From positions 1 through 57,923 of the forward strand of contig CACZPK010000008.1 of the NCBI GenBank assembly GCA_902783035.1: 57,923 nucleotides of DNA. Direction: 5' to 3'. The position numbers and the translations under genes are program-made. The stretch comes from Oscillospiraceae bacterium. GTDB taxonomy: Bacteria > Bacillota > Clostridia > Oscillospirales > Oscillospiraceae. Of the stretch, positions 39,852-55,853 are shown piece after piece. The notes under the pieces were generated by a model. That model ran no database searches and was not told the origin of the DNA. It was given only the letters and a program-made list of their open reading frames with translations. Each line of letters starts with the position of its first letter. Within the stretch, counting starts at the first letter, position 1.

Positions 39852-39865
39852 TTAGCTTAGTCTAA
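39852..39865 (+). promoter_or_regulatory. DtxR-type box (TTAG-CTTAGT-CTAA)
   Basis: A near-palindromic GTTAG...CTAAC box 19 bases before the Cys-rich gene at 39885. It fits the core of the IdeR/DtxR operator (TTAG-N6-CTAA), and the same box recurs through the island. Confidence 0.7.
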
Positions 39866-39884
39866 CTTCGTGGAGGGCACACGG

Positions 39885-40148
39885 ATGCCCGTTCATGAAT
39901 TATGCCGTGCCTGCTGCCATTATGAGCTTCGTCCCCTGACGGAGGCAGAACAGGAAAAGCTGCATTTGGATTTTGGCGAAAAGGATTTTGACCTGCGCTA
40001 CGCCCGGAAAGCGATCTCCGCCTATATGCCGAACGCGGAGCTGACGATTCGCCTCCGATGTCTCCACTGCGGATATATGGCGGCGCACCCGAAGGAGTAT
40101 GTCACGGAGATCGAACGGTTTATCGGCAATGTGGGATCGATCAACTGA
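39885..40148 (+). CDS. Small Cys-pair (zinc-ribbon-like) protein
   Basis: This 87-residue protein has CRACC near the N-terminus and CLHCG near residue 63, a spacing that suggests one metal site. GGAGGG precedes the ATG. No family name comes to mind. It is the first gene after a DtxR-type box and 15 bases before a broken ABC transporter gene, so it probably belonged to that metal-controlled operon. Confidence 0.7.
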   Translation: MPVHELCRACCHYELRPLTEAEQEKLHLDFGEKDFDLRYARKAISAYMPNAELTIRLRCLHCGYMAAHPKEYVTEIERFIGNVGSIN

Positions 40149-40163
40149 GAAGGAGAGAAAAGC

Positions 40164-41225
40164 ATGACGACCAAAGAGAAGAAACCAAGCGATGTAGCTG
40201 TTCTGCTGGGTTACGCAGGCAGCTACCGGGGGCTGACGTATCTCGGGCTTGCCCTGTCCGCGGCAGCGATGATACTCGGGATGCTCCCCTACATCTGTAT
40301 TTGGCTCGCGGCGCGCGATCTCATCGCGGTCGCGCCGGACTGGACGAGGGCGGCGGGGATCGAACGCTACGGGTGGATGGCGTTTGCTACCGCGGTGGGC
40401 GGTATCATCGTCTACTTCTGCGCGCTGATGTGCACGCACCTTGCGGCGTTCCGCACGGCGAGCAACATCCGCAAGGCCGGCATGGCGCATCTGATGAAAA
40501 CGCCGCTCGGGTTCTTTGATTCAAACGCCTCGGGCCTTCTTCGCAACCGGCTGGACGGCGCGGCGGGAGAGACGGAGACGTTGCTTGCGCACAACCTCGC
40601 GGACATCGTGGGGACGGCGGCGATGTTCCTTTCAACGCTCGTGCTGATGCTCGTCTTTGACTGGCACATGGGGGCGGCCTGCCTGTTCGCGGCGGTGGTG
40701 TCCGTTGCGGCGATGTTTTCGATGATGGGCGGCAAGAACGCAAAGCTCATGGCGGAGTATCAGGCGGCGCAGGATACGATGAGTAAGGCGGGCACCGAGT
40801 ATGTGCGCGGCATTCCCGTCGTAAAGGTATTCCAGCAGACGGTGTACTCGTTCAAGGCGTTCCGCGAGGCGATCGAGGACTACAGCACAAAGGCGGAGAA
40901 GTACGCTCTCGGCGTCTGCCGTCTGCCGCAGGCGATTAACCTGACCGCCACCGAGGGCGCGTTTATCTTCCTCGTGCCCGTGGCGCTGCTGCTCGCGCCC
41001 GGCGCGCTGAGAAGCGGCAACTTTGCACTTTTCGTGACCAACTTTGCTTTCTATGCGGTATTCTCGGCGATCATCTCCACGGCGCTCGCGCGCATCATGT
41101 TCGCTGCCAGCGGCATGATGCTCGCGCATACCGCGCTCGGACGCATCGACGAGGTGATGAACGCGCCGACGCTGGAGATCGTCGCAAATCCGCGCCTGCC
41201 GAAGGACAACGGCGTCGATCCTTGA
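40164..41225 (+). pseudogene. ABC exporter-type subunit A, membrane part (internal deletion)
   Basis: The frame encodes a full six-helix ABC transmembrane domain (for example LMKTPLGFFDSNASGLLRNRLDGAAGETE) of the kind found in IrtA/YbtP-like siderophore importers. It then stops shortly after RIDEVMNAPTL, where the nucleotide-binding domain should begin. The rest of that domain, without Walker A, continues in another frame (next entry). The junction GGCGTCGATCC fits both flanks, suggesting a deletion between short repeats of some 350-400 bases. The protein cannot hydrolyse ATP. Confidence 0.8.
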
Positions 41226-41268
41226 TAATGTCCGCGCGGCGCGCCCGGACGCGACGCGCGAGGAGGCG

Positions 41269-41688
41269 ATGGCGGCGCTCGAAGCGGCGCAGTGCGGCGA
41301 CATCCTCGCAAAGCTGCCGAATGGTGTCGATACCGTGATCGGCACGGAGGGTACCTATCTTTCCGGCGGCGAACAGCAGCGCGTCGCGCTGGCCCGTGTC
41401 ATTCTCAAGGACGCAAGCATTGTGGTGCTCGATGAGGCAACCGCCTTTGCCGATCCCGAGAACGAGGTGTTCATTCAAAAGGCGATCGCGATGCTGACGA
41501 AGGGGCGGACGGTCGTCATGATCGCGCACCGGCTTTCCACCGTTGTGAATGCGGATAAGATCATCGTGCTGGACGCCGGCAAGGTTGTCGAGGAGGGCAC
41601 GCATGACGAGCTTGTGCGTGCCGGCGGCCTCTATGCCCGTATGTGGGCGGACTATCAGAAGGCGGTCTCGTGGAAGATCTCGGCGTAA
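41269..41688 (+). pseudogene. ABC subunit A, C-terminal part of nucleotide-binding domain
   Basis: The frame, open from about 41218 (ILDNVRAARPDATREEAMAAL), carries the signature LSGGEQQRVALARV, Walker B IVVLDEATAFADPEN and the switch His in VMIAHRLSTV. Walker A and the Q-loop are missing. It belongs with the preceding membrane part as one gene broken by an internal deletion and frameshift. Confidence 0.8.
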
Positions 41689-41702
41689 GGGAGGCGAAGA
41701 CA

Positions 41703-42443
41703 ATGTTTGGGAAAGAGTTTCAACATAAGTACGCGCTCACGGAGCAGGGCGTAAAAAACGTCAAAGCGGGAACGCTCTGGACCGTCGTTACCAATCTTGT
41801 TGTCATGGGCGGCATGGGCATCCTTTATTTGATGATGGGACGCTATATGGACACGCTGACCGGCGGCGCGCCGCTGCCGGATGCCGCAACGTTTCTCGCG
41901 CTGACGCTTGTGTTCGTCGTGCTCTCGCTTCTCACGCATGTGCAGCAGTACAAGGCGACCTACGGTCTTGTCTACGGCGAGGTCAAGGCGGCGCGCATCT
42001 CGCTTGCCGAGCGCCTGCGGACGCTGCCGCTCGGCTACTTCGGCAAACGCGACCTCGCCGACCTCACCGAGACCATCATGGGCGACGTGAACCGCTTGGA
42101 GCACGTCTGGTCGCACTGCCTCGGCTATCTCTACGGCTCGTTTGTCTCCACCGCGATCGTCGGCGTGTGCCTGTTCGTCTACGACTGGCGGCTTGCGATC
42201 GCCTGCCTCTGGGGTGTGCCCGCGGCGTTTGTGCTGCTCTTCGGCAGCCGTGCGCTCGCCAAGCGCGACTCCGAGCGCACCAAGGCGGCGGCGATCCGTG
42301 TTTCCGACGGCATTCAGGAGACGCTGGAGAACATCCGCGAGATCCGGGCAACCAATCAGGAGGAGCGCTTCCTCCGGGAAAACGGCATCTTCCGCCGCAT
42401 GGCGCAGCTTCAGGCGGCAAGCGCCGCGTGGAGCATCGGATAA
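41703..42443 (+). pseudogene. ABC exporter-type subunit B, truncated after the membrane domain
   Basis: This 246-residue frame encodes the first part of a second ABC transmembrane domain (LPLGYFGKRDLADLTETIMGD). It ends near ENIREIRATNQEERFL, so the last two helices and the whole ATPase domain are gone. A few residues in another frame (SDKRLKMGA, ending at 42465) look like the original C-terminus. Again both ends remain and the centre is lost. With subunit A it would have formed a heterodimer of the IrtAB/YbtPQ type. Confidence 0.78.
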
Positions 42444-42482
42444 GCGGCTGAAAATGGGAGCATAACGGGAGGAGCGAAAGCG

Positions 42483-42788
42483 ATGCAATTCGATGAAATG
42501 GGCCTGAAAACCGGGAAAACCCTGTTTCTGCTGCCGGGGACGGCCTGCGATTATTACACCGACCTGCTCACATGGCTGGAGGACGATATCCATGTGGAGC
42601 ACACAAAAGCCCACTTCATTTATGCGAAGAAGATGGGTGAGAAGTATCTGAAGCGGTACAGGAAGTATTTCCGCGATCCCGATATCCGCGAATTTGACAT
42701 GCAGCACGAGCAATGGCTGTTCGGCGGAGAGAGCTATGCCGCGCCGGTGCTGAAAGTCATCGATGCGTTCATGGAAATGCCTGTGTGA
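42483..42788 (+). pseudogene. Alpha/beta hydrolase with an in-frame internal deletion
   Basis: The 101-residue product starts like a small alpha/beta hydrolase (KTLFLLPGTACDYY, the first beta-strand and oxyanion region) and then jumps to a C-terminal part (EDDIHVEHTKAHFIYAKKMG, HEQWLFGGESYAAPVLKVID). The nucleophile elbow (GxSxG) is absent. Full relatives are about 250 residues. It has a GGGAGGAG ribosome site, so a short protein may still be made, but it should be inactive. Confidence 0.65.
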
Positions 42789-42841
42789 AAGCTGTTCGGA
42801 GCATATTTGAATCATCAGAAAGACGAGGGGGAAAAGAAATC

Positions 42842-43621
42842 ATGGATCTCAAATTCGGAGACATTCAGGAAACCGCCCTGATCCCGCTGGCGATCAAGGC
42901 GAGCGAGACCGCGCGCCCAAATGCACGGATACGCGACGAGAAGGCGGAGGAGATTATCGAGACGCTTGGCGTGGACGTGAGCAAATACGATCCCTTTTTA
43001 TCGCACGAGGGCGTCGTGGCGCGGACGATCCTGTTCCGCGACCAGCTCAAGGCGCTCCTGCAAGCCCATCCGGACGCCACCTGCATCAACCTGGGCTGCG
43101 GCTTCGACGATAAATTCTCTCAGGTGGACAACGGACGGCTGCGGTGGTTTGACGTGGATCTGCCCGACCAGATCGCCGTGCGGCGCAAGGTGTATGAGGA
43201 TCGGGAGCGCTGCACCATGCTCGACGGTGACGCCCTGAACGGCTACTGGACGGCGAACATCCCCAAGGCGGAGCTGTATATCATCGTCATGGAGGGCGTG
43301 CTGGAGTATTTCTCCAGGGAGCAGGTCAAGGCCTGCCTCAATATGCTCTGTGACAGCTTTCCCCACGGATACCTGCTGGCGGAGCTGCACTCCCCGTTTC
43401 TGGAGAAGCACAGCAAGCAGCACGACACGGTCAAATACACGAACGCAACCTTCGGTTGGGGTACCAAGTCCGGAAGGGAGTATCTTGATTTGGAACCGCG
43501 GATGAGCTTCGTATCCGAGACGAGCTACAACACCGAAATGAAGAAGTATTCCATCCGCAGCAAGCTGTTCGCCATCATCGGCAGGAACCTCAACAACCGC
43601 CTCGCGGTGTATCGCTGGTAA
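42842..43621 (+). CDS. SAM-dependent methyltransferase, TcmP/LCM family
   Basis: This 259-residue enzyme is of the O-methyltransferase/leucine-carboxyl-methyltransferase type. SAM-binding motif I is CINLGCGFDDKF, followed by WFDVDLPD and a GVLEYF segment. The target is unknown; relatives in anaerobes lie beside metal genes. It appears intact, unlike its truncated relative at 53008. GGGGGAAAAG precedes the ATG at 42842. Confidence 0.82.
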   Translation: MDLKFGDIQETALIPLAIKASETARPNARIRDEKAEEIIETLGVDVSKYDPFLSHEGVVARTILFRDQLKALLQAHPDATCINLGCGFDDKFSQVDNGRLRWFDVDLPDQIAVRRKVYEDRERCTMLDGDALNGYWTANIPKAELYIIVMEGVLEYFSREQVKACLNMLCDSFPHGYLLAELHSPFLEKHSKQHDTVKYTNATFGWGTKSGREYLDLEPRMSFVSETSYNTEMKKYSIRSKLFAIIGRNLNNRLAVYRW

Positions 43622-43659
43622 TCATCAGAGGCAAAAAACGACATACAAAAAATCTCTTG

Positions 43660-43713
43660 TTAGGCCTTGCTTATTCTGTTAGTGTGTGCTAATATTTTGT
43701 TAGATGATGCAAA
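43660..43713 (+). promoter_or_regulatory. Promoter with three DtxR-type boxes before the DUF6110-ATPase genes
   Basis: TTGCTT (43667-43672), a 17-bp spacer and TAATAT (43690-43695). Boxes: TTAG-GCCTTG-CTTA (43660-43673), TTAG-TGTGTG-CTAA (43679-43692) and TTAG-ATGATG-CAAA (43700-43713). The best box lies inside the spacer, so binding would block RNA polymerase. Confidence 0.7.
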
Positions 43714-43744
43714 CAGCATCAAATGATGAAAGGGCGGGATCACG

Positions 43745-43999
43745 ATGTCTTGGAGTAAACTGGCTGTTTTTGCGGGCGGCGTGCTGTTTGGCACGGCAGG
43801 GATCAAGGCGCTTGGGAGCAAGGACGCAAAGAAAGCGTACACGCACGTCACTGCGGCGGCGCTGCGGGCGAAGGACTGCGTCATGGACGCTGCGACGACG
43901 GTGCGTGAGGGCGCGGAAGACGTCTACGAGGACGCGAAGCGTTTTAATGAAGAGCGTGCCTCGGCGGAGGATGCCGCCGTCATCGAAGACAAGGCCTGA
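43745..43999 (+). CDS. DUF6110 family small membrane-anchored protein
   Basis: This 84-residue protein has an N-terminal hydrophobic, glycine-rich segment (LAVFAGGVLFGTAGIKALGS) and a charged, helical tail (AATTVREGAEDVYEDAKRF). It matches the DUF6110 pattern, a family often encoded beside P-type ATPases in anaerobes. A terminator lies between it and the ATPase gene, so it should be made in excess. I suggest a structural or coating role around the ATPase membrane; this is inference. Confidence 0.8.
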   Translation: MSWSKLAVFAGGVLFGTAGIKALGSKDAKKAYTHVTAAALRAKDCVMDAATTVREGAEDVYEDAKRFNEERASAEDAAVIEDKA

Positions 44000-44005
44000 C
44001 GCTTG

Positions 44006-44042
44006 GGAAAAGAGGAGGCGTAGGCTTCCTCTTTTCCTTTTT
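44006..44042 (+). terminator. Intrinsic terminator between the DUF6110 and ATPase genes
   Basis: An 11-bp stem (44006-44016 with 44027-44037) followed by five Ts. The ATPase ribosome site starts right after the T-run, so the terminator must leak to give ATPase mRNA. Confidence 0.88.
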
Positions 44043-44054
44043 GGAGAGAAAACC

Positions 44055-46157
44055 ATGAAATGTAAGATACTGCATGAGTCTGCCGGACGCATCCGCGTCC
44101 ATCTCTGCTGTGGGCGCATGAGCTGCGCGCAGGCGGATATTCTGGAATATTACCTTCTGTCAAAGACCGGTGTGATTGCCGTGAAGGTCTACGAGCGCAC
44201 CGGCGACGCGGCGGTCTCCTACCTCTGCTCACGGGAGGACGTGGTCGGAGCGCTGGCCGCGTTTTCCTACGAGAGCGCGGCGAAGAGCGTCGCCGTGCCG
44301 GAGCGCACGGGGCGCGCAATGGATCGGGAATACGAGGAAAAGCTCGTCATGCGCGTCGTATGGCGCGGCATGAAGCGCATCTTCCTGCCCGCTCCCGTGC
44401 GCATCGCTCTTGCATGGCTGCGCGCGGCGGGATATATTGTCAAGGGGCTTGCGACGCTGCTGCGCGGAAAGCTGGAGGTGCCGGTGCTCGACGCGACGGC
44501 GATCACCGTTTCCCTTTTGCGCGGCGATTACAAGACCGCCTCGTCCGTGATGTTTCTGCTTGGCGTCGGCGGTCTTCTGGAGGAGTGGACGCACAAGCGT
44601 TCTGTGGACGACCTCGCCGGCGCGATGTCGCTCGGCGTAGAGCGCGTCTGGCTGCGGCTTGGCGACGGCACGGAGGTTTTGACGCCGATCTCCGAGATCG
44701 TCTCCGGCGCGCAGATCGTTGTGCGCGCGGGGAACCTGATCCCTCTCGACGGCAAGGTCGTTTCGGGCGAGGCGGAGGTCAACCAGTCGTCGATGACGGG
44801 TGAGGCGCTTGCCGTGCGCAAGTCGCCGGGCAGCTATGTCTACGCCGGGACGGCCGTGGAGACGGGCGAGTGCGTCGTCGCCGTGGAGAAGGTCTCCGGC
44901 GAGGGACGCTACGACCGTATCGTGAAGAGCATCGAGGAGTCCGAGCGTCTCAAGTCTGCGGTGGAGAGCCGCAGCGAGCATCTGGCGGATTCGCTTGTGC
45001 CGTGGAGCCTCGGCGCGACGGCGCTTGTTTACCTGCTGACGCGGAACGCGACGAAGGCGCTTTCCATCCTGATGGTGGACTTCTCCTGTGCGCTCAAGCT
45101 GTCCATGCCGCTTTCCGTCCTCTCGGCGATGCGCGAGTCGATCACGCACGGCGTATCGGTCAAGGGCGGGCGCTTTCTGGAGGCTGTCGCGGAGGCGGAC
45201 ACCATCGTGTTCGACAAGACGGGCACGCTGACGCACGCCGAGCCGCGCCTTGTACGTGTTGAACCGTTCGGCGGACGGGATGAAGCGGAAATGCTGCGCC
45301 TTGCCGCGTGTCTCGAAGAGCATTTTCCGCACACGATTGCAAACGCCGTTGTGCGCGCGGCAAAGGAGCGCGGTCTCGACCACGAGGAGCGCCACTCGAA
45401 GGTGGACTATGTGGTGGCACACGGCATCGCGAGCGAGATCGACGGCGAGCACGCCGTCATCGGGAGCCACCATTTCGTTTTTGAGGACGAGGGCTGCCAT
45501 ATCCCCGCGGGCGAGGAGGCGCGCTTTGACGCGCTGCCGAACGAGTATTCGCAGCTGTACCTTGCGCTTGACGGCGAGCTGGCGGCAGTCATTTTGATCG
45601 AAGACCCCGTTCGTACCGAGGCGGCGGACGCAATCGCGCGGCTGCGGGAGCAGGGCTTTACACAGATCGTGATGATGACGGGCGACAGCGAGCGCACCGC
45701 TGCGGCGGTGGCGAAAAAACTTGGTCTCGACGATTACCGTGCCGAGGTGCTGCCGGAGGACAAGGCGCGCTTTGTGCGCGAAGCACGCGCCGCCGGGCAT
45801 ACGGTGCTCATGGTGGGCGACGGCATCAACGACTCGCCCGCGCTTTCCGAGGCGGACATCGGCGTCGCCATCAGCACGGGCGCGGCGATCGCGCGGGAGA
45901 TCGCGGACGTGACCGTATCGGAGGACGACCTCTTTGCCCTCGTGACGCTGCGTGAACTGAGTACGGCGCTGATGCGGCGCATCCGCGGGAACTACTGCGC
46001 GATCATGTCGTTCAACCTCGCGCTTATTCTGCTGGGCGTTTTCGGCGTGCTGCCGCCCGCGACGGGCGCACTCCTGCACAACGGCTCCACGGTCGCCATC
46101 GGTCTTCGCAGTATGACGCGGTTGCTGGAGGAGAAAAAAGAGGAGGGGCAATGCTGA
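44055..46157 (+). CDS. P1B-type heavy-metal ATPase with SCALK membrane motif
   Basis: This 700-residue cation pump has an HMA-like N-terminal fold (KILHESAGRIRVHLCCGRMS) without a CxxC, an actuator loop SSMTGE (245-250), a phosphorylation site DKTGTLT (387-393) and a hinge GDGINDSPAL. The ion-site motif is SCALKLSMP (344-352) in place of CPC or SPC, a form assigned to the P1B-6 group, which includes the ferrosome ATPase FezB. It may load iron or another divalent metal into a membrane compartment or export it. GGAG precedes the ATG at 44055; the frame upstream is a shadow over DUF6110. Confidence 0.88.
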   Translation: MKCKILHESAGRIRVHLCCGRMSCAQADILEYYLLSKTGVIAVKVYERTGDAAVSYLCSREDVVGALAAFSYESAAKSVAVPERTGRAMDREYEEKLVMRVVWRGMKRIFLPAPVRIALAWLRAAGYIVKGLATLLRGKLEVPVLDATAITVSLLRGDYKTASSVMFLLGVGGLLEEWTHKRSVDDLAGAMSLGVERVWLRLGDGTEVLTPISEIVSGAQIVVRAGNLIPLDGKVVSGEAEVNQSSMTGEALAVRKSPGSYVYAGTAVETGECVVAVEKVSGEGRYDRIVKSIEESERLKSAVESRSEHLADSLVPWSLGATALVYLLTRNATKALSILMVDFSCALKLSMPLSVLSAMRESITHGVSVKGGRFLEAVAEADTIVFDKTGTLTHAEPRLVRVEPFGGRDEAEMLRLAACLEEHFPHTIANAVVRAAKERGLDHEERHSKVDYVVAHGIASEIDGEHAVIGSHHFVFEDEGCHIPAGEEARFDALPNEYSQLYLALDGELAAVILIEDPVRTEAADAIARLREQGFTQIVMMTGDSERTAAAVAKKLGLDDYRAEVLPEDKARFVREARAAGHTVLMVGDGINDSPALSEADIGVAISTGAAIAREIADVTVSEDDLFALVTLRELSTALMRRIRGNYCAIMSFNLALILLGVFGVLPPATGALLHNGSTVAIGLRSMTRLLEEKKEEGQC

Positions 46158-46795
46158 AGTATACGGGAAAATACTGGGCGGTCATCACGCCGCTCATCAA
46201 AAAGTCGATGAACCGATACTATGGCTCGGATTTCATCAACGAAACCGTGAAAAAAGCAAAGCCCATCTACCGCGAAATGCTGCGGGAGACGGACGACGTC
46301 GGAGCGGACAACCCGATGGCGAAGAACGTCTACGAGTGCTTTGTGTTCCTCGCCATTTGGAAAGCGGCGGAGGGCAGGATCACGGCGGACGATCTGCGCA
46401 AGATCACGAAGGACGTGCTGTCCTTCCCTCTTCTAAAGGCGATGGGGCTTGTCATAAACGCCAATTCGCCCGCAGCGGTCAAACGGGCCAGTGAAAAGAT
46501 GCGCGTCAATCAGGCGTGGCTCGACGCGCATCCGCAGTACAAGGCAACCTCATGGGACTTCAACTTCGACGAGACGCTCCACCGTGACGGGTTCTACTAT
46601 CATTTCACGCACTGTCCGCTCAACGACTATGCGCGGGAGCACGGTATGATCGACATTCTCCCGGTCATGTGCGAGATCGACCATATGACTGCCGCGCTGA
46701 TGCACGCGACGCTCCACCGGGAGCAGACGCTTGCGACGGGCGGAACAAAGTGCGATTACTGGTTCTACGGTGACAAGCTGAAGAATCCGCAGTAA
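46151..46795 (+). CDS. L-2-amino-thiazoline-4-carboxylate hydrolase-like protein
   Basis: This 214-residue protein is of the ATC_hydrolase family (AtcB-like). The C-terminal TKCDYWFYGD holds the conserved cysteine, and FDETLHRDGFYYHFTHCPLN is also typical. AtcB opens the ring of 2-amino-thiazoline-4-carboxylate in bacterial cysteine synthesis, but most relatives in Clostridia lie in metal loci without that pathway. Its start overlaps the end of the ATPase gene (ATGC), so the two are coupled. Confidence 0.82.
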   Translation: MLKYTGKYWAVITPLIKKSMNRYYGSDFINETVKKAKPIYREMLRETDDVGADNPMAKNVYECFVFLAIWKAAEGRITADDLRKITKDVLSFPLLKAMGLVINANSPAAVKRASEKMRVNQAWLDAHPQYKATSWDFNFDETLHRDGFYYHFTHCPLNDYAREHGMIDILPVMCEIDHMTAALMHATLHREQTLATGGTKCDYWFYGDKLKNPQ

Positions 46796-46808
46796 GGGAG
46801 AAACGGCT

Positions 46809-47498
46809 ATGACGCGCAAGGAACAAATTCAAGGAGCATACGGCTTCCTCGGCGGAAAGGAGCACAATTTCTACGACGGTATGATCACCTGCTCGACATT
46901 CGCGGGTACGGCGGTCAGCCGGCTCGTGTGGAGCATCGGTCGGGAGAAAAACCTCGCCTACCTCGAACGCGCGCTCTCCGGCGTGCCAGAGGACTTCGCG
47001 GGCAAATTGCTCGAAGTGCCCGTCGGGACGGGTGTGCTGACGATGCCGGTCTATGCGAATCTTCCAAACGCAGACGTCACCTGCCTTGACTACTCACAGG
47101 ACATGATGGCCTCGGCGCAAAAACGCGCGGAGGGCGCGGGGCTTAAAAACGTACGCTTTCAGCAGGGTGACGTGGGCGCGCTGCCGTTTGAGGACGGGAG
47201 CTTCGACATCGTGCTCTCCCTCAACGGCTTCCACGCCTTCCCCGACAAGGAGGCGGCATACCGCGAGACGTACCGTGTACTCAAGCCCGGAGGGACGTTC
47301 TGCGGATGCTTCTATGTGAAGGGCGAGAACCGCCGCACGGACTGGTTCATTGACAAGCTCTATACGCCCAGGGGCTATTTCACGCCGCCCTATGAGACGC
47401 TGGTGAGCCTGCGCGCAAGGCTTGATAACCTGTACGCCAGAGCGGAGGCCAGCGCGGTGGAGGGCATCGCCTGCTTCCGCTGCGTCAAGGGAGAATGA
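46809..47498 (+). CDS. Class I SAM-dependent methyltransferase
   Basis: This 229-residue Methyltransf_11-type enzyme has motif I LLEVPVGTGVLTMPV (GTG in place of the usual GxGxG), a DYSQDM acidic loop, and GALPFEDGSFDIVLSLNGFH and RVLKPGG as motifs III and V. The target is unknown. It is 13 bases after the thiazoline-hydrolase-like gene and looks intact. Confidence 0.85.
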   Translation: MTRKEQIQGAYGFLGGKEHNFYDGMITCSTFAGTAVSRLVWSIGREKNLAYLERALSGVPEDFAGKLLEVPVGTGVLTMPVYANLPNADVTCLDYSQDMMASAQKRAEGAGLKNVRFQQGDVGALPFEDGSFDIVLSLNGFHAFPDKEAAYRETYRVLKPGGTFCGCFYVKGENRRTDWFIDKLYTPRGYFTPPYETLVSLRARLDNLYARAEASAVEGIACFRCVKGE

Positions 47499-47500
47499 CC

Positions 47501-47614
47501 ATGAAGATTCTGGTACTCGGCGCGGGCGCCATCGGCGGACAGCTCGCGCTGCGCGCCGCCATGCCGCCACGGGAAGAACTGCGGCGAAGATACGCGAAGG
47601 GATCGGGGAGGTAA
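47501..47614 (+). pseudogene. N-terminal fragment of a Rossmann-fold (ketopantoate-reductase-like) protein
   Basis: The first residues MKILVLGAGAIGGQLALRA are a dinucleotide-binding loop of the PanE/ApbA type, with a start just after the methyltransferase stop. The frame runs out after only 37 residues. The remaining 250-plus residues are missing, and the next regulator gene begins nine bases later. It is another gene cut short in this island. Confidence 0.6.
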
Positions 47615-47622
47615 ATCAGCCG

Positions 47623-48084
47623 ATGAAAAAAGCAATCGAGAACTCACTGAATACAGCCAGACAAAAGACGCGACGGGGAAACGGAAGCATGGTGCTGCAG
47701 GAATCCGGCGAGATGTATCTGGAGACGATCTACGTTCTATCCCAAAAGAAAACCTATGTGCGTGCCTCCGACGTCAGCACGGAAATGCGTGTGACGCGGC
47801 CGAGCGTCAGCCGCGCGATCCACCTTCTGGAGGACGGGGGCTTCCTCACGATAGATAGCTGCGCGCTTTGCCTGACGGACGCGGGCCGCGAATACGGTGA
47901 GAGGATCTACGAGCGGCATGCGACGCTGACACGGTGTTTTGTCGCGCTCGGTGTGGATCGGGAGATCGCTGCAAACGATGCCTGCCGTATCGAGCGCATC
48001 ATCAGCGACGAATGCTTTGCCGCGCTCAAAACGCATTTCACGGCGCTGGGCGACAAGGCCGCTCAGCTTGTTATGGCGCGGTAA
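47623..48084 (+). CDS. DtxR-family metal-dependent repressor 1
   Basis: This 153-residue protein has a winged helix (SDVSTEMRVTRPSVSRAIHLLE) and a dimer domain. The N-terminal EMYLETIY carries the Met that binds metal in DtxR, and ERHATL the first His. The primary-site motif is CRIER, where DtxR has C-x2-EH, so the second-last ligand is Arg here; metal sensing may be altered. GGGGAGGT lies 10 bases before the ATG at 47623; a shorter start at MVLQESGEM is possible. It sits just upstream of feoA and its paralogue is at 56734. Confidence 0.88.
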   Translation: MKKAIENSLNTARQKTRRGNGSMVLQESGEMYLETIYVLSQKKTYVRASDVSTEMRVTRPSVSRAIHLLEDGGFLTIDSCALCLTDAGREYGERIYERHATLTRCFVALGVDREIAANDACRIERIISDECFAALKTHFTALGDKAAQLVMAR

Positions 48085-48103
48085 CAAAAATTTCAAAACC
48101 CTC

Positions 48104-48186
48104 TTGACATATTAGCGTAAACTAACTATAATGCAAATAGTTAGCGGGAGCTAATAATTTTTTGAGATACTGTTAGCTGAAGCAAA
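48104..48186 (+). promoter_or_regulatory. feoA promoter with three DtxR-type boxes
   Basis: TTGACA (48104-48109), a 17-bp spacer and TATAAT (48127-48132). Boxes: TTAG-CGTAAA-CTAA (48112-48125, inside the spacer), TTAG-CGGGAG-CTAA (48141-48154) and TTAG-CTGAAG-CAAA (48173-48186). Repression when iron or manganese is plentiful is expected. Confidence 0.85.
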
Positions 48187-48205
48187 CGAAGAAAGAAGGT
48201 CGTCT

Positions 48206-48418
48206 ATGATGCCGTTGATTTTGGCGGATGCCGGTTCGGAAAACATCGTGCGCAAGGTCGGAGGCACGGCAGAGGTCAAGCAGCACCTTGCCGATTTGGG
48301 GTTCAACGTGGGAACGCCGGTGACGGTCGTGAGCGCCATGGGCGGCAATGTCATCGTCAAGGTCAAGGAGTCCCGCGTGGCAATCAGCCGCGAGATGGCG
48401 CAAAAGATTATGATTTAA
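48206..48418 (+). CDS. feoA: FeoA domain protein (first)
   Basis: This 70-residue SH3-like protein (AEVKQHLADLGFNVGTPVTVV, ISREMAQKIMI) belongs to FeoA, the cytoplasmic partner of the FeoB iron channel. AGAAGG lies nearby upstream. It is the first of two feoA genes in tandem before feoB, which is common in Clostridia. Confidence 0.92.
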   Translation: MMPLILADAGSENIVRKVGGTAEVKQHLADLGFNVGTPVTVVSAMGGNVIVKVKESRVAISREMAQKIMI

Positions 48419-48446
48419 TACATTGTGATAAAGGAGGAAGAGAAGC

Positions 48447-48674
48447 ATGACGACAAACCTGAGAGAGGTCAAGATCGGCGATACCTGCAAGGTCGTGAAG
48501 CTCCACGGCGAGGGTGCAGTCAAGCGCCGCATCATGGATATGGGGCTGACCAAGGGTGTCGAGGTCTACGTCCGCAAGGTGGCGCCGCTCGGCGACCCCA
48601 TCGAGGTCACGGTGCGCGGCTATGAGCTGTCCATCCGCAAGGCAGACGCCGAAACGGTTGAGGTCGAAATCTAA
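48447..48674 (+). CDS. feoA: FeoA domain protein (second)
   Basis: This 75-residue FeoA paralogue has the motif EGAVKRRIMDMGLTKGVEVYV and the C-terminal GYELSIRKADAETVEV. AAGGAGG precedes the ATG by about nine bases. It is 28 bases after the first feoA. Confidence 0.92.
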   Translation: MTTNLREVKIGDTCKVVKLHGEGAVKRRIMDMGLTKGVEVYVRKVAPLGDPIEVTVRGYELSIRKADAETVEVEI

Positions 48675-48698
48675 AATCGAAAATTTTTTATCCGGCTG

Positions 48699-48712
48699 TT
48701 AGCTTAGGCTGA
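48699..48712 (+). promoter_or_regulatory. DtxR-type box before feoB
   Basis: TTAG-CTTAGG-CTGA, 23 bases before the feoB start. It is close to the box at 39852. Confidence 0.6.
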
Positions 48713-48734
48713 CGGAAAAGGAAGGGAGAAAATC

Positions 48735-51212
48735 ATGGAATACAGAATTGCCCTTGCGGGCAACCCCAACAGCGGCAAAACGACGCTTTTTAACGCGTTG
48801 ACCGGCTCGAACCAGTTCGTCGGCAACTGGCCGGGTGTCACGGTCGAGAAGAAGGAGGGCAAGCTCAAAAAGTTTGACGGCGTGACCGTCACCGACCTGC
48901 CCGGTATCTACTCGCTCAGCCCGTACACGCTTGAAGAGGTCGTGGCGCGCAATTACCTCATTGAAGAGCGCCCCGACGCGATTCTCAACATCGTGGACGG
49001 CACGAATCTGGAGCGCAACCTGTACCTGACGACGCAGCTCACCGAGCTTGGAATTCCCGTCGTTATCGCCATCAACATGATGGACGTGGTGCGCAAGAAC
49101 GGCGACTCCATCAACATCCCCGCGCTGTCCGAAAAGCTCGGGTGCAAGATCGTCGAGATATCCGCCCTGAAGGGCGACGGTGTCGAGGCGGCGGCGGAGG
49201 CTGCGGTCACGGCGGCAAAGAGCGGCAAGACCGTGCCGATGCACACGTTCTCCGGGCCGGTGGAGCACGCTATCGCGCACATCGAGGAGGCGGCGGTGCA
49301 TGGTATGCCCGAGGAGCAGCAGCGCTGGTACGCCATCAAGATTTTTGAGAGCGACGACAAGGTACTCGAAAAGCTCAATATCCCGACCGACACCCTCGCG
49401 CACATTAAGACCGACATTGAGGCGGCGGAGAAGGAGCTGGACGATGACGCGGAGAGCATCATCACCAACGAGCGTTACCTCTACATCGCGGACCTTTTAA
49501 AGGGCATCTACAAGAAGAAGGGTGCGCACGAGTTGAGCACGTCGGACAAGATCGACAAGATCGTGACCAACCGTTGGCTCGGCCTTCCGATCTTCGCGGT
49601 CGTGATGTTCCTTATTTACTACCTCGCCATGGTCACGGTCGGCGCGAGCGCGACCGACTGGGCGAACGACGGACTGTTCGGCGACGGCTTCCACCTCTTC
49701 GGCATCGGCTCCGCCGCCGCCGAGGAGGCGGCGGATGAGTATACCGCCGCCGTGAACGCGGTGGACGCCTTTGTGGGCTTTGACGAGGAAGCCTCCGTCG
49801 ACGAGCTGAAGGGCTTTACGGCGGACGAGTCCGAGGTCCTCTACACCGTCGAGGACGAGGAGACCTTGGAGGAGTCCGAGATCACGGTCTACTTCGACGC
49901 CGTTCCCGCGGACGCGGACGAGGAGGAGACCAATGCCATGAGCTATCGCGATGCCGTGGCGTACTTTGAGGAAAACGGCTTTGAGGAGCCCGATCCCGCC
50001 GACTACGGCGTGTGGGTGCCCGGTATCCCCGTGCTGATCGAGAGCGGTCTGGACGCCGTCGGCTGCGCCGACTGGCTCAAGGGCCTGATCCTCGACGGCA
50101 TCGTCGCGGGCGTCGGCGCGGTGCTCGGCTTCGTGCCGCAGATGCTCGTGCTGTTCTTCCTGCTCGCGTTTGTCGAGGCGAGCGGCTATATGGCGCGCGT
50201 CGCGTTCGTGCTCGACCGCGTGTTCCGCCGCTTTGGACTCTCCGGCAAGAGCTTTATCCCCATTCTGGTCGGCACGGGCTGCGGCATCCCCGGCGTCATG
50301 GCGTCGCGCACGATTGAAAACGAGCGCGACCGGCGCATGACGATCATGACCACAACGTTTATCCCCTGCGGCGCGAAGGTGCCGTTCATCGCGATGATCG
50401 CGGGCGCGATCTTCGGCGGCAGCGCGTGGATCTCCACGGGCGCGTACTTCATCGGCCTCGCCGCCATTATCTGCTCGGGCGTTATCCTCAAGAAGACGAA
50501 GATGTTCGCCGGCGAGCCCGCGCCGTTCGTCATGGAGCTGCCCGCCTACCACTGGCCGACGCTTACGAATGTTCTGCGCAGCATGTGGGAGCGCGGCTGG
50601 AGCTTCATCAAGAAGGCCGGTACGATCATCCTGCTCTCGACCATCGTGATCTGGTTCCTCTCCCGCTTCGGCTGGGTCGACGGCGCGTTCGGTATGCTGG
50701 AAGAGGACGAGATCAGCAGCAGCATCCTCGCGGCAATCGGCAACGCTGTGGCGTGGATCTTTATCCCGCTGGGCTGGGGCAACTGGCAGGCGACCGTTGC
50801 GTCCGTCACGGGCCTCGTCGCCAAGGAAAACATCGTCGGCACGATGGGCGTGCTCTACGGCGGCGGCGAGCTGTCCGTCTGGGGTGAGTTGGCACGCCAG
50901 TTCACGACGGCGTCCGGCTTGAGCTTCCTCATTTTCAACCTGCTCTGCGCACCGTGCTTCGCCGCCATCGGCGCGATCAAGCGTGAGATGAACAACCGCA
51001 AGTGGACGTGGTTTGCCATCGGCTATGAGTGCGGCTTCGCCTACGTCGTGAGCTTTGTCGTCTACCAGCTCGGCAGCGCGTTTGCGGGCGCGGGCAACAT
51101 CATCGGTATTGTGCTCGCGGTCGCGGTCATCATCGGCTTCGGTTATCTGCTGTTCCGTCCGTATAAGGAAGCGACGAAGCTGACGGAGAACGTCCGTGTG
51201 AAGGCGGCGTAA
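48735..51212 (+). CDS. feoB: Ferrous iron transporter FeoB with an acidic insert
   Basis: This 825-residue protein has an N-terminal G domain (G1 GNPNSGKTT, DLPGIYSLSPYT), a helical GDI-like spacer, and two Gate motifs in the membrane part (PILVGTGCGIPGVMASRTIE). Between the first membrane helix and the Gate region is an insert of roughly 100 residues (about 325-425), strongly acidic (for example TVEDEETLEESEITVYFDAV), which would face outside the cell. Standard FeoB is about 650-700 residues. FeoB imports Fe2+ under low oxygen. GAAGGGAG precedes the start. Confidence 0.95.
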   Translation: MEYRIALAGNPNSGKTTLFNALTGSNQFVGNWPGVTVEKKEGKLKKFDGVTVTDLPGIYSLSPYTLEEVVARNYLIEERPDAILNIVDGTNLERNLYLTTQLTELGIPVVIAINMMDVVRKNGDSINIPALSEKLGCKIVEISALKGDGVEAAAEAAVTAAKSGKTVPMHTFSGPVEHAIAHIEEAAVHGMPEEQQRWYAIKIFESDDKVLEKLNIPTDTLAHIKTDIEAAEKELDDDAESIITNERYLYIADLLKGIYKKKGAHELSTSDKIDKIVTNRWLGLPIFAVVMFLIYYLAMVTVGASATDWANDGLFGDGFHLFGIGSAAAEEAADEYTAAVNAVDAFVGFDEEASVDELKGFTADESEVLYTVEDEETLEESEITVYFDAVPADADEEETNAMSYRDAVAYFEENGFEEPDPADYGVWVPGIPVLIESGLDAVGCADWLKGLILDGIVAGVGAVLGFVPQMLVLFFLLAFVEASGYMARVAFVLDRVFRRFGLSGKSFIPILVGTGCGIPGVMASRTIENERDRRMTIMTTTFIPCGAKVPFIAMIAGAIFGGSAWISTGAYFIGLAAIICSGVILKKTKMFAGEPAPFVMELPAYHWPTLTNVLRSMWERGWSFIKKAGTIILLSTIVIWFLSRFGWVDGAFGMLEEDEISSSILAAIGNAVAWIFIPLGWGNWQATVASVTGLVAKENIVGTMGVLYGGGELSVWGELARQFTTASGLSFLIFNLLCAPCFAAIGAIKREMNNRKWTWFAIGYECGFAYVVSFVVYQLGSAFAGAGNIIGIVLAVAVIIGFGYLLFRPYKEATKLTENVRVKAA

Positions 51213-51232
51213 TGACCGCACAGCGGTCATTA
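51212..51232 (+). terminator. Hairpin after feoB
   Basis: AATGACCGC-ACA-GCGGTCATT is a perfect 9-bp stem overlapping the feoB stop region. No T-run follows, so it may only slow RNA decay or limit readthrough. Confidence 0.5.
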
Positions 51233-51250
51233 CGTCAGGATCGCCATTTC

Positions 51251-51284
51251 CGCTCGCAGCTCATGCGGCAACCGCGAAATATGG
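51251..51284 (+). repeat. Repeated intergenic element, copy 1 of 2
   Basis: The block GCTCGC-n-GCT-nn-TGCGGCAACCGC-n-AAA-n-ATGG lies upstream of the Cys-rich gene and recurs at 54753-54786, upstream of DUF3793. The TGCGG-CAA-CCGC part can fold. Conservation outside genes suggests a regulatory RNA element or a small mobile sequence. Confidence 0.6.
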
Positions 51285-51354
51285 CTGATATCTCATGCCG
51301 CCTTCCGGCGTCACGAGATATGGAAACTTGCTTTTCAGAAAGGAGACTTTTCCC

Positions 51355-51510
51355 ATGGGTACGTTTTTTGTCGCACTCATCCTCATTGCCATAGTCACAC
51401 TCATCTCACTCTCCCTGATCCGCGACAAGAAACAGGGAAAGTCTTCCTGCGGCGGCAACTGCGGCTCCTGCGCCGGCTGCGCGGGCTGTCACGGAGGCTG
51501 CAAAGAATAA
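51355..51510 (+). CDS. FeoB-associated Cys-rich membrane protein
   Basis: This 51-residue protein has one membrane helix (TFFVALILIAIVTLISLSLI) and a Cys/Gly-rich tail (SCGGNCGSCAGCAGCHGGC). It belongs to the FeoB-associated Cys-rich family and probably helps pass or sense iron at the inner face. AAGGAG precedes the ATG at 51355; the longer frame covers the leader hairpins. Confidence 0.9.
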   Translation: MGTFFVALILIAIVTLISLSLIRDKKQGKSSCGGNCGSCAGCAGCHGGCKE

Positions 51511-51515
51511 AGTGA

Positions 51516-51541
51516 GAAAGCCGCGCGCAAGCGCGGCTTTC
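51516..51541 (+). terminator. Hairpin between the Cys-rich and HMA genes
   Basis: GAAAGCCGCGC-GCAA-GCGCGGCTTTC, an 11-bp perfect stem with a short T-run. It is probably a partial terminator. Confidence 0.65.
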
Positions 51542-51562
51542 CTCATAAAAGGAGTATGCAGA

Positions 51563-51808
51563 ATGGTTAAGACAACGCTTCAAATCGACGGTATGATGTG
51601 CGGTATGTGCGAGAGCCATATCAATGACGCCGTCCGCAACGCCTGCAAGGTCAAGAAGGTTACGTCTTCGCACAAGAAGGGAACGTGCGAGATCCTCTCG
51701 GACGATCCGCTCGACGAGGGGGCGCTTCGTTCCGCCATCGGCGATACTGGTTATCTGGTGCTGGGCGTGACCTCGGAACCGTATCGAAAAAAGGGACTGT
51801 TCGGCTGA
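51563..51808 (+). CDS. HMA domain metal-binding protein
   Basis: This 81-residue protein has an HMA fold with the metal motif GMMCGMCESH (CxxC), as in copper chaperones. A chaperone for the pump or a sensor is possible. AAAGGAG precedes the ATG at 51563. It follows the feo operon and leads into an alpha/beta hydrolase gene. Confidence 0.87.
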   Translation: MVKTTLQIDGMMCGMCESHINDAVRNACKVKKVTSSHKKGTCEILSDDPLDEGALRSAIGDTGYLVLGVTSEPYRKKGLFG

Positions 51809-51827
51809 GTGGGAGGAGAAAACGAAT

Positions 51828-53006
51828 ATGGAACGCTGCGATGTCAACACACCCGTTACCTTTCAAAAGGGCTACTGGCGGTTCTGCCCGCAGGCAAATT
51901 TCAATTTCCAGCTCAATCGCGTCATTATGTGGGACGGTGGGCGCAAGGAGGACATCGACAAGATCGGCGCGTCCGTTGTCAGCAGTGAATCGTGGGTACG
52001 CGCGATGCGCCGGCTTGCGGATGAGGCGCACGCCGAGGGGCGGACGCAGCATGAGATTGCCTACCGCCGCATGACCGAGTTTTTCATGTACGACAGCGAT
52101 CCGGACAAGCGCAAGACCTATGAGGATGCCGCCGCGCTGTTTTACGACTATTACGGCGACTATTTCGACCGCGGCATCGTCACACGCGCGCAGGTGCCGT
52201 ATGGCAGCGGGTATCTGCCCGTGATGACCGCGAAGGCAAAGGGCGAGCGTGTCGATACCGTCCTGCTCCACGGCGGCAACGACAGCTATTTTGAAGAGTT
52301 TTTCTTCGCCATGCTCTATCTTGCCGAGCGCGGCTTTGACGTCTATCTCTTCGAGGGCCCCGGTCAGGGCGGCGTACTGCGCGTGCAGGACATGAAGTTC
52401 GACTACCGGTGGGAAAAGCCTACGTCTGCGGTGCTGGACTATTTCGGATTGAACGACGTGACGATCATCGGCGCGTCGCTCGGCGGGTATCTCGCTCCGC
52501 GTGCCGCGGCGTTTGAGCCGCGCATCAAACGTGTGGTCGGCTGGTCGATCTTCCCGGATTTCTTCGACGTCGTCATCGCTGACCATCCCGGCGTAATGCG
52601 CTCCGCCATCGGCGGGATCTTCAAGCTCGGACTCGGTAAAGCGATGAACAGAATGTACGACAAGATGATGGAAAAGGACGAGCTGGTGCGCTGGAACCTG
52701 CTGCACGGGATGTACGCCTATGACGCGAAAACGCCGGACGAGTACATCCGGCGCATCCGCAAGTTCACGCTCAAGGGCATCGCCGACAGGATCACGCAGG
52801 ACGTGCTGATCCTCGGCGCGCGGGAGGACCATTTCATCATGCCGAAGCTGTTCCATGAGGAATACGACCTGCTCACGAACGTCCGCTCGCTGACGCTGAG
52901 CCTCATGACCGACCGGCAGGACGCGGGCGCGCACTGCAACGTCGGCAACACGAAGCTGACGCTCGACACGATGGCGGACTGGATCGCGCGCACAAAGGCG
53001 GTGTGA
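51828..53006 (+). CDS. Alpha/beta hydrolase (FrsA-like)
   Basis: This 392-residue enzyme has a helical N-terminal cap (residues 1-130) and an alpha/beta core with VLLHGGNDSYFEEFF, the nucleophile elbow IIGASLGGYLA and late catalytic Asp and His candidates in LGAREDHFIMP and GAHCNVGN. It resembles the FrsA/dihydroxypseudooxynicotine hydrolase group. The substrate is unknown; an ester-bearing metallophore is one option given the location. GGGAGGAG precedes the ATG. Confidence 0.85.
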   Translation: MERCDVNTPVTFQKGYWRFCPQANFNFQLNRVIMWDGGRKEDIDKIGASVVSSESWVRAMRRLADEAHAEGRTQHEIAYRRMTEFFMYDSDPDKRKTYEDAAALFYDYYGDYFDRGIVTRAQVPYGSGYLPVMTAKAKGERVDTVLLHGGNDSYFEEFFFAMLYLAERGFDVYLFEGPGQGGVLRVQDMKFDYRWEKPTSAVLDYFGLNDVTIIGASLGGYLAPRAAAFEPRIKRVVGWSIFPDFFDVVIADHPGVMRSAIGGIFKLGLGKAMNRMYDKMMEKDELVRWNLLHGMYAYDAKTPDEYIRRIRKFTLKGIADRITQDVLILGAREDHFIMPKLFHEEYDLLTNVRSLTLSLMTDRQDAGAHCNVGNTKLTLDTMADWIARTKAV

Positions 53007-53007
53007 G

Positions 53008-53292
53008 ATGCCTTTTCAGTACCACATCGAAAAGAACACCGTGCAGGAGACGCTGGTGATCCCGCTGTTTGCGCGCAAGACCTGCTCGGAGCGCTATCCG
53101 TCGCTTTTCTCCGATCCCGAGGCGGAGCGCGTCTGCGCCTCGCTTGATTATGACTTTGCATCCCGTGAAAAGAAGATGCGCGGCTACCGCGACATTTCGC
53201 GCAAGTTGGGATTGATCCACAGGCAGATGCTCAGATTCTGCGACAACGCGGTCAACATGAAGATTGTTAAAATCAGCTTTCGGGAGGGATGA
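53008..53292 (+). pseudogene. TcmP/LCM-type methyltransferase with an in-frame internal deletion
   Basis: The 94-residue frame starts like this family (KNTVQETLVIPLFARKTCSE, YPSLFSDPEAERVCASLDYD) and ends like it (MLRFCDNAVNMKIVKISF). The SAM-binding centre of about 180 residues is missing. The gene follows the hydrolase by one base and its stop overlaps the next gene, so translation coupling persists although the enzyme must be dead. Confidence 0.75.
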
Positions 53293-53999
53293 TCATGCGG
53301 GCGGATTACAAAAAACGGGTGCCGAAAGCGCTTGCCGCCGCATGCGGCATCGGTATTGCAGCGTATGCCGTTTCGCGGCGCGGCAAGCAGAAAAAGAAAA
53401 GCGACATCTGGAACTTCTATGCGCCGGTCTACAACCTTTTTATGAGGATGGATCGCGCGCTCTATGATGAGATGTACCGCCGTATCCGCATTGCGGTTGC
53501 CGGTAAGCGTGTGCTGGAACTCTGCACGGGCACAGGGTTGATCGCCAAGCACGTTGCGTCTGCTGCCTCGGAGATGATTGCCACCGACTTTGCGGAGAAG
53601 ATGCTCGCCGAGGCGCGCAAGGGCGACGTGCCGGCGAACCTAACCTTCCGGCAGGCGGACGCAACTGCACTGCCCTTTGCGGATGGCAGCTTCGACGCGG
53701 TCATCATCTCCAACGCGCTGCACATCATCCCGCAGCCGGAAAAGGCGCTCAATGAGATACGGCGTGTGCTGCGGCCGGGAGGTTTTCTGATTGCTCCGAA
53801 CTTTGTCCACAAGGAAGGCGATTTGCAATCGGGCATATGGGCGAAGCTGCTCACCACTGCGGGTATCGTTTTTGCGGTGGCATGGGACGCGGAAAGCTAT
53901 CCGGCGTTTCTGGAACAAAACGGCTGGCGCGTGCGTGAGAAGGCGGTACTGGAGGCGAGCATCCCGCTGGTGTATACCGAATGCGAGGCGGCGGAATGA
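53289..53999 (+). CDS. Membrane-anchored SAM-dependent methyltransferase
   Basis: This 236-residue protein has an N-terminal hydrophobic stretch (ALAAACGIGIAAYAVS) followed by a Methyltransf_11 domain: VLELCTGTGLIAKHV, ATDFAEKML, ALPFADGSFDAVIISNALH and RVLRPGG. It may methylate a lipid-like or quinone-like substrate at the membrane. Two starts (ATGATCATG) are close together near 53289. Confidence 0.85.
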   Translation: MIMRADYKKRVPKALAAACGIGIAAYAVSRRGKQKKKSDIWNFYAPVYNLFMRMDRALYDEMYRRIRIAVAGKRVLELCTGTGLIAKHVASAASEMIATDFAEKMLAEARKGDVPANLTFRQADATALPFADGSFDAVIISNALHIIPQPEKALNEIRRVLRPGGFLIAPNFVHKEGDLQSGIWAKLLTTAGIVFAVAWDAESYPAFLEQNGWRVREKAVLEASIPLVYTECEAAE

Positions 54000-54100
54000 A
54001 AATGACGCTGCTGTTGTCAGCGGTGATGACGGCGAGCCCTTTTCTGATGCTCTATGCAGCCATTGCCCTGATACAGGATAGGAAGTTTTTCACCTTTTGA
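53996..54100 (+). CDS. Predicted 34-residue membrane peptide
   Basis: The start overlaps the stop of the methyltransferase gene (ATGA). The product is one hydrophobic helix (LLLSAVMTASPFLMLYAAIA) with a short basic tail. Coupled translation and composition support it, but no family is recognised. Confidence 0.45.
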   Translation: MKMTLLLSAVMTASPFLMLYAAIALIQDRKFFTF

Positions 54101-54161
54101 AGGAATAGACAAGCGTTTCCGACAGGATGAAAAAAGTCAAAAACGGAGGGAAACGTGACTT

Positions 54162-54257
54162 ATGAAGATGAACATGAAAATGAGGGACAGAGTTGTCTTA
54201 TACGTCTTTTTAGCGATCGGCGCGGCGGTTTTGCTGAGCAGCTGCCTGCGGTTGTAA
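54162..54257 (+). CDS. Predicted 31-residue membrane peptide
   Basis: A CGGAGGG site stands 10-12 bases before the ATG. The product has a basic start (MKMNMKMRDR), then one helix (VVLYVFLAIGAAVLLSSC). It may be a small lipoprotein-like or membrane peptide. No family is recognised. Confidence 0.45.
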   Translation: MKMNMKMRDRVVLYVFLAIGAAVLLSSCLRL

Positions 54258-54324
54258 TGCTTGAGCGGACGCACGTCCGTGAGGGACTTTTGCCCGCATT
54301 GCAGCAAGAAAAACGAATAACCCC

Positions 54325-54410
54325 TTGACAAATCAAGTAAGTTACCTTAAACTTACATCAAGAAAGAGCCGAGCGGCTTTTTCTTTTGTTGAGAAGTTAG
54401 CGTAAGGTAA
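54325..54410 (+). promoter_or_regulatory. Promoter, leader hairpin and DtxR-type boxes before the DUF2325 gene
   Basis: TTGACA (54325-54330), a 17-bp spacer and TAAACT (54348-54353). GTAAG...CTTAC (54337-54356) is a near-palindrome over the -10 region, and TTAG-CGTAAG-GTAA lies at 54397-54410. Between them AAAGAGCC-GAGC-GGCTTTTTC (54364-54382) with T-rich tail forms a terminator-like hairpin. Confidence 0.65.
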
Positions 54411-54426
54411 CAAGGGAGGAGACCGT

Positions 54427-54720
54427 ATGAGCGTTGTGATCGTCGGCGGGAACGAGCGCATGGAGCGGCAGTACCGTGAGCTGTGCGAGGCGTACCGCTG
54501 TGAGGCGAAAGTCTATACGAAGGAATCCGGCATGAGCGGCAAGGTTGGCTCGCCCGATCTGCTGGTGCTGTTCACCGGCACGATGTCCCACAAGATGCTC
54601 CAGGGTACGCTGCGCGCGATCAAAGGCAAGGACATGGTCGTCGCGCGCTCGCATTCCAGCTCAATGGCAGCGCTGCGCGGTATTTTGGAGCAGCACGCGG
54701 CGGGGGTGAAATCAGCGTGA
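54427..54720 (+). CDS. DUF2325 family protein
   Basis: This is a 97-residue Rossmann-like protein. The start SVVIVGGNERMERQYRELCE and the VLFTGTMSHKML and VVARSHSSSMAALRGIL stretches agree with DUF2325, a family frequent beside feo genes. Function is unknown. GGGAGGAG precedes the ATG. Confidence 0.87.
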   Translation: MSVVIVGGNERMERQYRELCEAYRCEAKVYTKESGMSGKVGSPDLLVLFTGTMSHKMLQGTLRAIKGKDMVVARSHSSSMAALRGILEQHAAGVKSA

Positions 54721-54752
54721 AGGTACACGCAGATTTCAAATAATACCGTTTT

Positions 54753-54786
54753 TGCTCGCCGCTTGTGCGGCAACCGCAAAACATGG
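54753..54786 (+). repeat. Repeated intergenic element, copy 2 of 2
   Basis: Second copy of the block at 51251-51284. Here it ends in the GGAGG ribosome site of the DUF3793 gene, so folding could control translation. Confidence 0.6.
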
Positions 54787-54795
54787 AGGAATAAA

Positions 54796-55347: not shown

Positions 55348-55372
55348 ATTTCAACATTTGGAGGAATACAAC

Positions 55373-55795: not shown

Positions 55796-55804
55796 AACAA
55801 CAAG

Positions 55805-55831: not shown

Positions 55832-55853
55832 CCGCACAACGGGAGGGCTAACA

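Follow-up and report, generated by a model that had tools for sequence, protein, structure and literature searches.

The 57,923-nt stretch analysed here (the window; positions 1–57,923 of contig CACZPK010000008.1, assembly GCA_902783035.1, forward strand) belongs to an Oscillospiraceae bacterium and harbors, at 43745–46157, two genes that we regard, with a probability of about 0.78, as a fezAB operon orthologous to the ferrosome gene pair of Clostridioides difficile and situated within an iron-regulated island. Ferrosomes of C. difficile are small membrane-bound iron stores, FezB is a pump of the P1B-6 group, and fez operons of the C. difficile type include a third gene, fezX. According to an excerpt of PMC12574912, C. 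difficile needs both the membrane protein FezA and the transporter FezB to form ferrosomes, and Fur represses the pair; a passage of PMC11651100 gives it as CD630_05910-05920. The C. difficile locus compared here is L056, of strain HC132. An earlier sequence-only reading of the window had named a DUF6110 gene, a SCALK ATPase, a thiazoline-hydrolase-like gene, DtxR boxes, feoAB, and a flavodoxin, all of which were recovered, and had proposed a new variant of ferrosome or metal vesicle. This novelty was mostly unsupported, since the C. difficile locus has an equivalent pair with an ATPase 55% identical to that of the window (other matches longer than 110 residues in that genome reached at most 31%). 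The ferrosome-like identity itself was upheld, because the partner gene, the ion-site motifs, and a supported set in the ATPase tree are common to the window and the C. difficile pair. The locus looks like a further, well-supported example of the known C. difficile-type system.

The product of the fezB-like gene passed the heavy-metal P1B model TIGR01525 with 489.7 bits (cut-off 346.25), and its fourth transmembrane segment reads DFSCALKLSMP at residues 342–352, including D342-F-S-C-A-L-K348; as the sequence-only reading had stated, neither CPC nor SPC is present in this ATPase. The last helix contains H675-N676 (HN), a P1B6 feature according to the part of PMC9374683 available, and the N-terminal strand/helix domain has no CxxC. 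Among 81 proteins compared, 71 had D[YF]SC[AG]xK and all 81 a looser form; no protein had CPC or SPC, and 79 had HN, the remaining two being truncated; across 20 aligned proteins, R12, R14, D342, C345, A346, K348, N654, H675, N676, and T679 were invariant. The structural model adopts the P1B fold with a small strand-and-helix domain first (predicted local distance difference test score, pLDDT, 80.4; predicted template modeling score, pTM, 0.67), its closest solved folds being copper and zinc pumps (4bbj top by E-value; 7r0g_A with a TM-score of 0.66). The HMA_2 cut-off was just reached by the C. difficile ATPase (first 131 residues) but not by that of the window. In a midpoint-rooted tree of 95 rows, built by a quick method with seven rows shorter than 600 residues left out, the window ATPase was sister to that of its nearest relative, L052 (support 100; FezB 83% identical), and fell with the C. 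difficile pump in one 44-row set (Shimodaira–Hasegawa-like approximate likelihood ratio test, 97). Five CPC pumps from the window's own genome and C. difficile formed a branch of their own, with which the window ATPase did not group, and a CPC-type identity was rejected on this placement together with the absence of CPC/SPC. Nine pumps from other Bacillota with SCGLK or ACGLK and HN (L025–L033) made up a separate branch.

The protein encoded upstream of the ATPase had been taken for an added compartment coat, a proposal that was rejected because the C. difficile pair also carries DUF6110 (E 1.5e-23), directly before its P1B ATPase; judged by family and position, the DUF6110 protein is best read as FezA. 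Its model consists of a helix at residues 3–23, a predicted membrane helix with GVLFG, and a long helix at 26–83 (pLDDT 81.9, pTM 0.39), and GxxxG lies within the first helix in 20 of 25 aligned DUF6110 members. Named genomes were scanned with a seven-sequence alignment as the query, and in the best 80 of the 586 related stretches a DUF6110-family gene preceded the ATPase on the same strand in 71, with a median gap of 18 nt, as counted with a profile iterated here (E 0.001) that is looser than Pfam; when five of its members were re-checked at the Pfam cut-off, L056, L089, L075, and L085 passed and L106 failed. In five of the nine loci without an upstream DUF6110 gene, the ATPase starts at most 235 nt from a contig end (L068, L074, L105, L107, and L109), in L087 the 608 nt upstream of the ATPase gave no DUF6110 match, and in L110, L112, and L113 other small proteins are encoded there. 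DUF6110 exceeded the cut-off in 4 of 299 genomes of the same phylum, and in all four an ATPase adjoins one copy. Genome G069 carries, besides such a pair, a second DUF6110 gene without an adjoining ATPase (L013, 8150–8422).

Loci L110, L112, and L113 are presumably representative of the Desulfovibrio, Shewanella, and Rhodopseudomonas fez clusters. They resemble the window in having a related P1B ATPase with SCALK and small proteins encoded upstream, but their ATPases form one separate sister branch and the small proteins are not DUF6110. The small protein of L110 matched DUF4405 at E 2.9e-5 with 24.9 bits, just under the cut-off of 26.7, and FezC is described as related to the DUF4405 family in an excerpt of PMC10979944. 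No DUF4405 cytochrome of the FezC kind, a component of Desulfovibrio-type clusters, was detected in the window genome by a scan limited to the neighbor proteins encoded at 39870–57135.

With respect to regulation, exact TTAGN6CTAA boxes occur on the forward strand of the window at 39852, 43679, 48112, and 48141, and these four sites, spanning 8.3 kb, are the only ones in the 2.55-Mb assembly (85% complete), where the same pattern reversed, as a control, occurs 20 times per strand. One box stands before fezA, two before feoA, and one before a small open reading frame (ORF) preceding an ATP-binding cassette (ABC) transporter gene. The box at 43679–43692 covers the spacer and the −10 hexamer of the fezA promoter, with one-mismatch boxes at 43660 and 43700, and in L052 both hexamers, the 17-nt spacing, and the exact box are conserved. 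A consensus promoter scan omitted this promoter (8 of 12 positions against a threshold of 9) and found no excess over shuffled sequences (6 found, 5.2 expected). The loose pattern was mildly enriched in the window, as 12 one-mismatch boxes were found versus 6.4 expected and 2 of 100 shuffles reached 12, the exact pattern being more telling. The product of 47689–48084 is, by its domains, a candidate box binder.

Similar sites were found beyond the window. Eighty regions upstream of DUF6110-family genes were collected (71 from the 80-locus set, eight further ones, and the window), and 18 of them contained the exact box, compared with 0.85 on average and never more than 4 across 300 shuffles preserving single-base content only. 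The Fur core occurred once exactly and 16 times with two or three mismatches (about 4.5 expected); a perfect Fur-type palindrome lies upstream in L023, and a Fur-like site with two mismatches in L056. In the Methanobrevibacter loci L075, L077, L080, and L097, TTAGGN4CCTAA lies upstream of the DUF6110–ATPase pair, which makes these methanogen pairs candidate ferrosome genes with DtxR-type regulation. Together, this suggests that fez loci are governed by differing iron repressors according to lineage, with DtxR-type boxes in the window and Methanobrevibacter and Fur-type sites elsewhere. The C. difficile locus shares with the window an iron-repressor-like site upstream, but it is reported, in the excerpt cited above, to be Fur-repressed and has a Fur-like site, whereas the window has DtxR-type boxes; it also differs from the window, where feoAAB is adjacent and an ATC-hydrolase/methyltransferase pair follows fezB. 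In L042, exact boxes were located at 8362, 12531, and 12587, between fez and an ABC gene and before a methyltransferase gene, in addition to those before feo, which suggests a larger shared regulon.

The gene neighborhood also points to iron. The ATPase was found at E 1e-100 or better in 12 of 61 genomes of the same family, the window's own included, and a pooled search of the 80 loci detected FeoB in 12 and DtxR-like proteins in 9. In the better-scoring half of these loci (the first 40), feoB was nearby in seven, versus at most 0.53 expected from whole-genome FeoB content (Poisson P = 1.5e-6, a somewhat generous value because L045 and L066, two of the seven, are near-identical relatives), indicating that feoB accompanies fez above chance in other genomes. 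The sequence-only reading thereby passed the two of its own refuting checks that genomes can answer: its ATPase stands apart from CPC pumps, and iron genes do occur among the neighbors elsewhere. Iron is the likely metal of the window pump, as the sequence-only reading had proposed from the boxes, feo, and flavodoxin, because the boxes are specific within the assembly, feo and flavodoxin genes are present, and feoB occurs next to fez loci more often than expected. For ferrosome genes of the C. difficile type, the window provides a clear iron-regulon setting in a further gut-type bacterium.

Beyond the family membership, tree placement, gene order, motifs, and assembly-wide specificity of the boxes, we infer a box-binding repressor, iron transport into a vesicle, and a clustering role of FezA. 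With ample iron, a repressor of the DtxR type (probably the product of 47689–48084) would occupy the TTAGN6CTAA boxes and silence fezAB and feoAAB, and under iron starvation its release would turn both on. FeoB would then import Fe(II), which FezB, as a P1B-6 pump, would move across the membrane into a vesicle or membrane invagination. FezA, with a single membrane helix bearing a GxxxG groove and a long cytoplasmic helix, would gather FezB and shape the iron-filled compartment.

Several points weigh against a fezAB operon of this kind. No exact box was found in 62 of the 80 upstream regions, though some of these carry Fur-like sites, and the Cd-type NCBIfam model ATPase-IB2_Cd was also passed by the window ATPase (358.7 bits; cut-off 313.5). 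Two ferritin-family proteins over the cut-off are encoded in the same genome, so that the need for another iron store is not obvious and the window fezAB would be an additional one beside them. Moreover, L056 was equated with the characterised fezAB by which genes it contains and how they are ordered rather than by locus tags, the window system is predicted from its sequence, and the presence of DUF6110 would be equally compatible with a PacL-like role. In mycobacteria, PacL1 assembles the pump CtpC in clusters that act as platforms for zinc efflux, and the passages of PMC9374683 available describe DUF6110 as related to DUF1490 (PacL), typically encoded with P1B6 ATPases, and possibly building membrane platforms; an excerpt of PMC13043812 adds that PacL forms functional clusters only with a glycine groove in its helix, which the GxxxG of most aligned DUF6110 proteins recalls. 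PacL1–CtpC, as described there, also resembles the window in pairing a small single-helix glycine-groove protein with a P1B pump that has HN in its last helix.

The window pair could accordingly be an efflux platform, in which P1B-6 pumps, clustered in the plasma membrane by the DUF6110 protein, export surplus metal without any vesicle. This is a real rival because of the reported relation to PacL and because the DUF1490 profile, run on four actinobacterial fez genomes, gave its best match on fezA by coordinates in three (E 0.0011, 0.0088, and 0.060), but we consider it unlikely. None of those three matches reached the cut-off, one had a nearly equal runner-up, the fourth genome gave no match, and a match at E up to 1 likewise turned up in 3 of 14 controls. 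In the window, the Pfam scan (E up to 0.1) returned DUF6110 as the sole match of the small protein and none to DUF1490, and the C. difficile FezA-like relative matched DUF1490 at E 0.14. The protein ends in AAVIEDKA and has no histidine-rich metal motif, and the CPC of CtpC is replaced by SCA in the window pump, so that three marks of the PacL type, a DUF1490 domain, a C-terminal metal-binding motif, and CPC, were not found in the pair. The boxes weigh further against an efflux platform, because efflux of excess metal should be metal-induced, whereas they overlap the promoter like a starvation-type repressor site and are common to feoAB; PacL1–CtpC is reported to respond to metal excess, and for the closely related C. 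difficile pair ferrosome formation has been reported. The same pump might instead be an ordinary heavy-metal exporter of the Zn/Cd/Cu type that lies in the iron island by chance, as the passed Cd-type model and the copper and zinc pumps among the solved folds would allow. This is highly improbable in our judgment, given that two further P1B pumps of the genome, L002 and L003, carry CPC and fall in another branch of the tree, that the window pump lacks CPC/SPC, and that the DUF6110 partner is constant among relatives.

The best lead from the preferred fezAB reading is that FezA (DUF6110) and PacL (DUF1490) may constitute one family of single-helix glycine-groove scaffolds gathering P1B-6-like pumps into membrane assemblies, with ferrosomes and efflux platforms as two outcomes of one assembly principle, set by starvation or excess control and by membrane bending; we advance this tentatively, as a possibility short of an even chance. 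No published link of the DUF6110–DUF1490 relation to ferrosomes was found in the literature searched, the primary ferrosome papers lying outside it; the terms ferrosome and PacL co-occur in a breast-cancer review, and the former is absent from PMC9374683 and PMC13043812 as available. DUF6110 is tied here to FezA and, via published work, to PacL scaffolds, and the role of FezA is therefore directly testable.

The ATC-hydrolase-family gene, thiazoline-hydrolase-like in the sequence-only reading, had been counted as part of the system. Its start overlaps the end of the fezB-like gene by 7 nt (ATGCTGA), and the two are probably co-transcribed here. A ferrosome variant with a working ATC protein, e.g., in sulfur release or breakage of a thiazoline metallophore in or beside the compartment, would fit this overlap, the occurrence of ATC in 6 of 12 fez-carrying genomes of the same family versus 7 of 49 others (Fisher P = 0.014; 0.033 excluding the window genome), and its location near fez in G406 (a same-family genome, just upstream of fezA), L047, and L052. 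However, ATC lies near fez in just 2 of the 80 loci by pooled search (a partial match at the end of L042, which passed the single-locus search and failed the pooled one, was not counted), it is not in C. difficile L056, and in L052 other genes separate it from fezB, which lies 4.6 kb upstream, making such a variant very improbable. ATC and fez share a contig in at least 2 of the 12 fez-carrying genomes (the window and G406), a lower bound because contigs are often short. A core role in fez was rejected on the 2-of-80 count, and the gene is read as a member of the wider iron-regulated island and not as a constant fez component; the claim that it is absent from known fez loci was nearly right, apart from those two loci and G406. 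In the excerpt of a Faecalibacterium prausnitzii co-expression paper, an ATC-hydrolase cluster appears as an enrichment term only, with no link to iron.

Features of the island in the window (coordinates are window positions; an empty cell means that no value is given)
Feature	Coordinates	Strand	Evidence or remark
Fourth exact box	39852-39865	+	Immediately ahead of the 92-aa ORF
92-aa cysteine-containing ORF	39870-40148		No Pfam match; ABC-transporter gene next
fezA promoter region	43660-43713	+	TTGCTT (43667-43672), 17-nt spacer, TAATAT (43690-43695), read by eye
fezA-like gene, DUF6110, 84 aa	43745-43999	+	PF19605, E 7.5e-36
fezB-like gene, P1B-6-type ATPase, 700 aa	44055-46157	+	TIGR01525, motifs, tree, model
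ATC_hydrolase-family gene	46151-46795	+	PF14196, E 3.8e-24
UbiE-like methyltransferase gene	46809-47498	+	PF13649, E 3.2e-25; 13 nt after the ATC gene
DtxR/MntR-like regulator gene	47689-48084	+	PF01325, PF02742
feoA promoter, TTGACA-17-TATAAT	48104-48154	+	Exact boxes at 48112 (inside spacer) and 48141
feoA	48206-48418	+	PF04023
feoA, second	48447-48674	+	PF04023
feoB	48735-51212	+	FeoB_N, E 6.1e-65
Flavodoxin gene	55373-55795		E 1.7e-20

In addition to these features, the Pfam scan detected a gene for a FeoB-associated protein in the island. The ABC-transporter genes before fez (40164–42443) look incomplete, as 40164–41225 and 41643–42443 match the membrane region only and the match of 41269–41688 is confined to the final part of the ATP-binding domain, reflecting either decay or an assembly fault. 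At about 47500–47615, a very short ORF starting MKILVLGAGAIGGQ resembles the stub of a dinucleotide-binding enzyme. The metal island runs to the end of the window, with a one-mismatch box at 54397 followed by a DUF2325 gene (54427–54720) and then by genes for DUF3793, the flavodoxin, a ZIP transporter, and a second DtxR/MntR-like protein (56731–57135).

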